Shown here piece after piece: positions 7,634-15,482 of a stretch of DNA of 45,805 nucleotides (position 1 is its first letter; every line of letters starts with the position of its first letter). The DNA is from Pseudomonadota bacterium. Lineage in GTDB: Bacteria > Desulfobacterota > Desulfobulbia > Desulfobulbales > Desulfocapsaceae. The stretch covers positions 1-45,805 of the forward strand of contig DAOVAI010000003.1 in NCBI GenBank assembly GCA_030671085.1, in the 5' to 3' direction. Made by a program: the position numbers and the translations under genes. The notes beneath the pieces were generated by a model. That model ran no database searches. It worked only from the letters and a program-made list of their open reading frames with translations, and was not told the DNA's origin.

Positions 7634-8182
7634 TTACGGCTTTACAATGGAGACAGGAAGTTTACGTCGTCCCCATTGCAGCGCCTCTGCGTGGGAGTCA
7701 AAGTAGAGATCAATCCTGTTTGGGCCTTTGATGGCCCCTCCTCTATCCTCGACCACTCCCCAGCCATAGCCGGGGATATACATTCTGGTACCAAATGAAT
7801 AGTACTTGGTGTCTGCAGCAATGGTGCCGTCTTTGGGGAGGAAATACCAGGGAAAAAAGATCAAGCGACCTGGGATTTTCCATGGCTGCTGTATGGAATT
7901 CACTGAAAAGAAACCTTCCTGGGGCTCTCTTGGGTAAGAGCCGCTGGCGGTTTGACCGGTGTAATCGCGTCCTGCTCCTTTGCCTGCACTCACATACCGA
8001 TTCCAGAAATCCAGTTTCAGGTAGGCCCAGCTGCCCCGCTCCCAGCTGCAGCACTTGGAACAGCCGCAGTAGGCAGTGGTCTCCATCATCCGGCTGACAG
8101 GTTTTTTGGTACAGCCGCCCAGGAAGAGGAAGAGGAAGATGAGAATACAGCAGAGTGTTTTTTTCTTCATTCGTAATGTCAT
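7634..8182 (-). CDS. 3D (Asp-Asp-Asp) domain lipoprotein
   Basis: Lipobox-like FLFLGGCTKK; TTAYCGCSKCC and YIPGYGWGVVEDRGGAIKGPNRIDLYFDSHAEALQWGRR typical of 3D domains. Confidence 0.8.
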   Translation of the reverse strand: MTLRMKKKTLCCILIFLFLFLGGCTKKPVSRMMETTAYCGCSKCCSWERGSWAYLKLDFWNRYVSAGKGAGRDYTGQTASGSYPREPQEGFFSVNSIQQPWKIPGRLIFFPWYFLPKDGTIAADTKYYSFGTRMYIPGYGWGVVEDRGGAIKGPNRIDLYFDSHAEALQWGRRKLPVSIVKP

Positions 8183-14596: not shown

Positions 14597-14640
14597 TCAC
14601 CACAGAGGACACAGAGAACACAGAGGAAGCGCTTGTTTTT
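14597..14640. repeat. Degenerate short tandem repeat (CACAGAGGA/CACAGAGAA)
   Basis: ttcaccacagaggacacagagaacacagagg between the PiT gene and the RAYT unit. Confidence 0.75.
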
Positions 14641-14656
14641 CTCTGTGCTCTTAGCT

Positions 14657-14681
14657 CGTAACACCGCTCTGCGGTGTTACG
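14657..14681. repeat. REP-like hairpin (large), upstream of RAYT
   Basis: CGTAACACCGC TCT GCGGTGTTACG: perfect 11-bp arms. Confidence 0.92.
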
Positions 14682-14688
14682 CATCCTA

Positions 14689-14703
14689 TGGCGCTCTGCG
14701 CCA
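14689..14703. repeat. REP-like hairpin (small), upstream of RAYT
   Basis: TGGCGC TCT GCGCCA: perfect 6-bp arms. Confidence 0.88.
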
Positions 14704-14715
14704 GGAATTAGAGCA

Positions 14716-15249
14716 ATGTCACGCAGCCGTTATCAATTTGCCGAGCCGGATCGACCACACTTCCTGACCTGTACCGTAGTAGAATGGTTACCCGTCTTCA
14801 CCCGGCAAGAAGCTGTCCAGATCCTGTTTGACTCATGGCACTATTTACAAACCAACCAAGGACTACAACTCTATGGCTTTGTGGTTCTTGAAAATCATCT
14901 GCACGTTGTCGCTCAAACTGAAAACCTGGCTGTAACCTGGGCCAACTTTAAGTCCTACACGGCACGCAGGATTATCGAGCTGCTTAAAGCCCATCACGCC
15001 GAAGAACTTTTGCAGCGGATGCGGTTTGCTCGCAAGGCAAAGCGTAATGATCGGGAGCATCAGTTTTGGCAGGAAAACTCACATCCTCAGGTGATTGAAG
15101 GAGAGACAATGCTGCGACAGAAATTAGACTATATCCATCAAAACCCGGTTAAGCGTGGCTATGTCGATGAGACTGAGCAGTGGCGGTGGTCGAGTGCACG
15201 AAATTATGGTGGTAGGAAAGGTTTGGTTGAGGTGTTTACTGCTTGGTAA
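14716..15249 (+). CDS. REP-associated tyrosine transposase (RAYT, IS200/Y1-like)
   Basis: MSRSRYQFAEPDRPHFLTCTVVEWLPVF; HLHVVAQ (HUH-like pair); DYIHQNPVKRGYVDETEQWRWSSARNY is typical of Y1_Tnp/RAYT; ORF track begins upstream within the small hairpin. Confidence 0.92.
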   Translation: MSRSRYQFAEPDRPHFLTCTVVEWLPVFTRQEAVQILFDSWHYLQTNQGLQLYGFVVLENHLHVVAQTENLAVTWANFKSYTARRIIELLKAHHAEELLQRMRFARKAKRNDREHQFWQENSHPQVIEGETMLRQKLDYIHQNPVKRGYVDETEQWRWSSARNYGGRKGLVEVFTAW

Positions 15250-15259
15250 AGGAGATCGC

Positions 15260-15305
15260 GGCGCAGAGCGCCTTGAGATGCGTCACACCGCAGAGCGGTG
15301 CGACG
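15260..15305. repeat. REP-like small + large hairpin pair in inverted orientation, downstream of RAYT
   Basis: GGCGC AGA GCGCC (15260-15272) then CGTCACACCGC AGA GCGGTGCGACG (15281-15305, one mismatch). Confidence 0.88.
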
Positions 15306-15324
15306 AGGAACTCGCAACTAACTT

Positions 15325-15369
15325 GTACCACCGCTCTGCGGTGGTACATATCCCGAGGCGCTTTGCGCC
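15325..15369. repeat. REP-like large + small hairpin pair in direct orientation, downstream of RAYT
   Basis: GTACCACCGC TCT GCGGTGGTAC (15325-15347) then GGCGC TTT GCGCC (15357-15369). Confidence 0.9.
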
Positions 15370-15451
15370 AAGACAGAGAATTAAGTTATGTCAAGCAGTC
15401 CTTATCTTTCCACCAGACAGGCTCAACCGCATTGCAGTGTATCTTTTCACC

Positions 15452-15482
15452 CTGACCTCTGTACTCTGAACTCTGCCTTCTG
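15452..15482. repeat. Degenerate tandem octamer-like repeat next to the PBP start codon
   Basis: tgacctctgtactctgaactctgccttctga. Confidence 0.6.

Follow-up and report, generated by a model that had tools for sequence, protein, structure and literature searches.

The closest described relatives of the locus analysed here are the RAYT (TnpAREP) transposases and the REP hairpins that accompany them. The biochemical work in the literature covered, including PMC8266576, concerns only group 2 and group 3 RAYTs, all of them with single GTAG-tagged hairpins. In the E. coli REPtron, a group 2 TnpAREP (PDB 4er8) is flanked by inverted REP pairs and further REPs (REP/BIME) are dispersed, each REP being one bulged hairpin after an essential GTAG, and both the E. 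coli and the Stenotrophomonas TnpAREP cut at C|T (PMC8266576). The group 3 REPtrons of Stenotrophomonas and Marinomonas have perfect short stems with loops of 3-4 nt whose bases matter, and cleavage of their single GTAG hairpin at CT or CA has been shown (PMC8266576). According to the main text of PMC6006769, the members of subclass 2.6 (RAYT group 5) have a median length of 179 amino acids and carry the motifs NH[LIV]H, WQ, YIH[QN]NP and SS; their genes, mostly from Bacteroidetes, are without GTAG and have in their flanks what the paper calls "atypical secondary structures", recognised by eye.

The locus described here, part of a window of 45,805 nucleotides (the whole stretch of DNA that was analysed), contains a domesticated transposase gene and is a genuine REPtron whose REP is bipartite; this form of the known bacterial repeat system, with two hairpins per repeat, has received little study. 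It resembles the E. coli REPtron in the HuH/Y1 fold, in the inverted repeat pairs flanking the gene and in the dispersal of the repeats, but here each repeat has two unbulged hairpins and no GTAG. Perfect short stems with loops of 3-4 nt are shared with group 3, the loops being mostly TCT or TCC here, whereas the repeat is a module without GTAG for which cleavage is a candidate activity. Compared with subclass 2.6 as the main text of PMC6006769 presents it, the locus is alike in motifs, in protein length (177 amino acids against the median of 179), in atypical flanking structures with copies elsewhere and in having no GTAG, but the published set is mostly from Bacteroidetes, whereas this protein and its nearest relatives come mainly from Proteobacteria and Desulfobulbaceae. 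The two-hairpin unit is not described in the main text of that paper, and part of the bipartite structure may already be drawn in its listing of atypical structures.

Other repeat systems are related in part. REPINs and BIMEs likewise consist of inverted pairs that can fold into one long hairpin, each half of which is here a two-hairpin module. The CGTC-tagged repeats are palindromic as well, and TIRYTs are RAYT-like genes between inverted repeats (PMC3733652), but the former, which have been described as lacking a transposase, are marked by a CGTC tag that is constant and unpaired, and the C-terminal HTH extension of the latter is not expected in the 177 amino acids encoded here. No such CGTC tag was found in the modules; after the CT at their foot come bases that vary and are paired. 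The IS200/IS605 elements (IS608, ISDra2) are similar in fold and, by inference, in their ssDNA hairpin substrates; they differ from this locus, which is single copy, has a Y---NP motif and carries inverted flanking modules. Judging by title, the publications retrieved by searching the literature for the motif letters have nothing to do with bacterial repeats.

The RAYT gene and its three modules

The initial annotation had seen a Y1-type gene, read as a RAYT transposase, surrounded by hairpin modules. The gene is a RAYT/TnpAREP, a HuH/Y1 nuclease by family and predicted fold, and its limits could be set (Table 1). Its product scores 99.9 bits (E 1.1e-28) with the NCBIfam model of REP-associated tyrosine transposases (NF047646, cut-off 80 bits) and does not reach the threshold of Pfam PF01797 (Y1_Tnp). 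The structure model, built from 50 aligned relatives with a mean pLDDT of 87, has as its top match 4er8, TnpAREP with a REP hairpin (E 2.2e-7), followed by the ISDra2 and IS608 transposases; H61, H63 and Y139 are unchanged in the alignment of the 50 relatives. The protein carries NHLH, WQ, YIHQNP and SS, with Y139-IHQNP as its Y---NP motif. By the motif table and length given in PMC6006769, rather than by its authors' profiles or tree, it fits subclass 2.6 (RAYT group 5), with a HuH-Tyr spacing of 76-78 against the median of 82 stated there.

Neither the Y---Q motif nor the multi-copy state of IS200/IS605 elements was found at the RAYT locus, the gene having a single close copy, itself, in this genome. 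The distribution of the RAYT is patchy, with a match at E 1e-10 in 5 of 93 genomes of the family and a relative at 50% identity or more in only 3 of the other 92. Four further Y1 transposase genes are present in this genome (G000:C247:83-415, C5:1862-2185, C5:5732-6067 and C18:10407-10637), two of them with an in-frame TGA, and the model search detected no module near any of the four.

Table 1. Features of the RAYT locus, with positions counted in the window.
Feature	Position	Strand	Description	Basis
Module 1	14653..14708	+	large hairpin 14657-14681, spacer, small hairpin 14690-14702	75.2 bits, fold
CT dinucleotide	14655..14656	+	directly 5' of the large stem of module 1	invariant in 26 aligned modules of ACCGC type
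RAYT/TnpAREP gene	14716..15249	+	177 aa; HuH H61-L-H63; candidate catalytic Y139	
Module 2, inverted	15254..15309	-	small hairpin 15260-15272, large hairpin 15281-15305	72.7 bits, fold
Module 3, direct	15320..15375	+	large hairpin 15324-15348, small hairpin 15357-15369	68.3 bits, fold
Probable remnant of a second RAYT gene (5' end)	15378..15464	+	after module 3	local alignment to gene start

All three proposed modules, one upstream of the gene, one inverted downstream and one direct downstream, were confirmed. In each of them a large hairpin, with a stem of 11 bp and a TCT loop, is separated by roughly 8 nt from a small hairpin whose stem has 5 bp and whose loop is TCT or TTT. As single-stranded DNA each module folds into its two hairpins, with energies between -18 and -21 kcal/mol and z between -4.1 and -7.0, and modules 3 and 2 together fold as one long hairpin (-40.7 kcal/mol). 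The cores that the initial annotation had described as shared exceed chance: the large core ACCGCTCTGCGGT has three exact copies in the window and no others even at 2 mismatches, a laxer setting at which 0.7 matches are expected and 4 of 100 shuffles reach three, and the small core GGCGCTYTGCGCC also has three copies, with 0.16 expected at 1 mismatch and none of 100 shuffles reaching three. Covariation of the outer arms, claimed at the same time, holds: compensatory changes at four large-stem pairs, with alignment columns 10/29 occurring in four pair types, support the large stem. A small correction is that the arms at 15281-15305 are imperfect (CGTCACACC vs GGTGCGACG).

The GT[AG]G foot is absent from the modules, and CT precedes the stem in all 26 that were aligned. 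Counted more widely, CT stands directly before the large stem in 28 of 28 modules of ACCGC type, and the foot of CACGC-type modules is AT (71) or CT (9). This dinucleotide may be a cut site, may act as a guide or may do neither. Shortly before module 1, the window holds a CACAGAGGACACAGAGAACACAGAGG sequence with an imperfect inverted partner (14602-14651), resembling another repeat. Matches to microRNA families of Rfam were rejected as chance, their scores being far under the gathering cut-offs.

Module types among related RAYTs

Eighty RAYT loci were fetched. A module of this kind was detected at 59 of the 61 flanks examined, a set to which the window and three members of the same family belong. 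Once reversed readings had been dropped, there were 113 modules in 57 loci plus the three of the window. The loci are partly redundant, since L015 and L067 are apparently one contig and several from Thiocapsa are nearly identical. Most loci have the order large-small upstream and its mirror image downstream, in sequences that differ between loci. L018, a RAYT that belongs to the same family but is less closely related, is flanked instead by canonical GTAG hairpins (1419-1447 and 2121-2149).

The tips of the large and small stems are ACCGC/GGCGC in the clade of the window and CACGC/GACGC in most loci, with rarer types in L017 (CATGC with CCTGC or GATGC) and L103 (CAGGC/GAGGC). Bases 2 and 3 from the loop are the same in the large and small stems of all 113 modules. 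The agreement at stem position 3 has a permutation P of 2e-4, a value that rests on little because only two loci vary there, and that at position 4 (P 0.0014) reflects clades. The exception at position 1 is L096, where the loop-closing bases of the large and small tips differ (CACGT beside GACGC, CACGC beside GACGT), which looks like a mixture of two module types.

Module tip type follows the RAYT tree: the ACCGC tip type corresponds to a single RAYT clade with 99% support, and the five tip types require four changes on the tree, the minimum. Residues at positions 8, 110, 133 and 158 of the RAYT distinguish the clades. The ACCGC clade mixes Chromatiales and Desulfobulbaceae, which suggests that the gene and its modules moved together by horizontal transfer.

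Dispersed modules and the history of the site

A genome-wide search for the module had been proposed as a check, and it was carried out on the contigs of this genome, which is 81% complete, with a covariance model of the module and with pattern searches. The module is dispersed in the genome: the covariance model finds nine full copies on five contigs, three at the RAYT and six on four other contigs. C68 and C212 have one copy each, and C148 and C250 each have an isolated inverted pair. The scores of seven of the nine are by construction, because these seven helped to build the model; the C250 pair was not among them. The copies are few for a REP family, which speaks against a REPtron. Hairpin repeats of one kind both flank the gene and are scattered through the genome, as described for RAYTs. 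The inverted pairs on C148 and C250, as well as the long hairpin of modules 2 and 3, have the form of REPINs or BIMEs.

Modules are also present in some congeners, among them G023, a 78%-complete genome with about 10 hits in which no close RAYT was found, and the same covariance-model search of several other relatives detected none. By exact pattern, each of seven relatives' genomes contains 2 to 24 two-hairpin modules, with none in the reversed control. Relatives carry cognate modules both at their RAYTs and dispersed. The reading of the initial annotation would have failed had the module occurred nowhere else; with six further modules in the genome and the cognate modules of relatives, it is supported.

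Several dispersed copies lie within larger elements. A palindromic element ending TAAGTGGATARCCC is common to G000:C250 839-1025 (L157), where its outer arms are 43 nt long and imperfect, and to G000:C68 near 7843-7960 (L152). In Methylotuvimicrobium buryatense 5G (L164-L183), many two-hairpin pairs lie, MITE-like, between GTAATTATTCA and CTGAATAGTTAC ends, which we take to be perhaps of IS66 type; in L169, an 8-nt direct repeat, ATTGAATT, was read by eye outside both ends of the pair-carrying element. Module pairs of G023 and G024 (L146, L140, L153, L158), genomes without a detected close RAYT, lie within a different palindrome with ATGAATTGATACTYG-type ends. The copies on C148 and C212 show no outer ends of these kinds, nor do several Methylotuvimicrobium copies (L177-L179). 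Neither of two empty-site comparisons gave a clean empty/filled pair: the gene at the V-ATPase junction is absent from congeners, and the signal with L177 was swamped by other repeats.

At the RAYT locus itself, the pit-pbp gap measures 910 nt against 3-325 nt in 16 congeners. The segment after module 3 aligns to the RAYT gene start with a score of 46, against a shuffle mean of 25.6 (largest 47; P about 0.004), and is probably a relic of a second RAYT start, with moderate support. The three nearest congeners match module 3 together with this relic (P about 0.002 for L114 and L115, 0.016 for L116), a match that could partly reflect the hairpins alone, and their own relics are not significant against the RAYT gene start itself. 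These data suggest, moderately, that an older RAYT, since decayed, was once at the site and that module 3 belongs to this second copy. Three points go beyond the initial annotation: the two hairpins form a single bipartite unit, the REPs have no GTAG tag such as the studied RAYTs use, and the third module probably belongs to the decayed copy.

A probable REPtron with bipartite REPs and its alternatives

We consider it highly probable that the locus is a REPtron in which a single-copy subclass 2.6/group 5 RAYT is associated with cognate bipartite, GTAG-free REPs, which it would bind, cleave and spread. The comparisons show the family of the protein and its predicted fold, the structure of the modules and their dispersal, the conserved layout of the loci and the match of module type with RAYT clade. 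In the most probable mechanism, the RAYT would bind a module in its folded single-stranded form, which becomes accessible during replication, and would recognise the tip and loop that its two hairpins share. Y139 would cut beside the module, possibly at the CT or AT that immediately precedes the large stem. The RAYT would then join the module DNA to new sites, the unit that spreads often being an inverted pair, large-small/small-large, in the same arrangement that brackets the gene. Tentatively, and with less than even confidence, a single RAYT may have to recognise both hairpins in succession by their common tip, perhaps with one hairpin per dimer protomer, and module and enzyme may co-evolve through this tip; if true, the shared tip and loop are the target code, in place of GTAG, for a bipartite REP class. 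With a widespread family whose putative substrate has two hairpins and no GTAG, target choice without a tag becomes testable, about 60 natural enzyme-substrate pairs with changed tips being available for swap experiments, and a search model is gained for a repeat class missed by GTAG-based searches.

The modules could instead be mainly passengers of other mobile elements (MITE-like palindromes mobilised by DDE transposases), with a RAYT that acts only locally or is domesticated for another task, a reading that we regard as rather unlikely. The common outer sequence of the C68 and C250 copies, the many Methylotuvimicrobium pairs within like ends, one with a direct repeat outside, and the G023/G024 pairs inside palindromes all speak for it, and since some dispersed copies lie in such elements, part of the spread may have a cause other than the RAYT; some copies may be carried by other transposases. 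However, the C148, C212 and L177-L179 copies are without such outer ends, different outer elements with the same kind of pair equally fit repeated insertion of pairs into palindromes, and a passenger origin leaves the match of module type with RAYT clade unexplained. As the pairs either insert into palindromes or ride with them, the dispersal is an observation from which we infer the action of the RAYT.

That gene and flanking modules form a complete IS200/IS605-like insertion sequence moving as one unit would agree with the mirrored order of the modules at nearly all loci, the enlarged pit-pbp gap, the likeness of the fold to IS608 and ISDra2 TnpA and the horizontal transfer suggested by the mixed clade. 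It is nevertheless improbable, given the one copy in the genome and the scarcity of close relatives in the family. The flanking modules are inverted, unlike the ends of IS608. The tyrosine motif is Y---NP (class 2) and not the Y---Q of IS200, as given in the main text of PMC6006769.

Least probable, at a very small chance, is that the hairpins are terminators or leader structures for neighbouring genes, unrelated to a transposase substrate. Module 1 does end 13 nt before the RAYT start codon, and an effect on translation is possible because an RNA fold pairs the AGGA ahead of that start, but the terminator reading was rejected, as a terminator-like T run is missing, and the same modules are dispersed, often inverted, and stand beside RAYTs in unrelated contexts. 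In the RNA fold of 14682-14716, the partner of the AGGA is the spacer of module 1, and the module might damp the translation of its own transposase.
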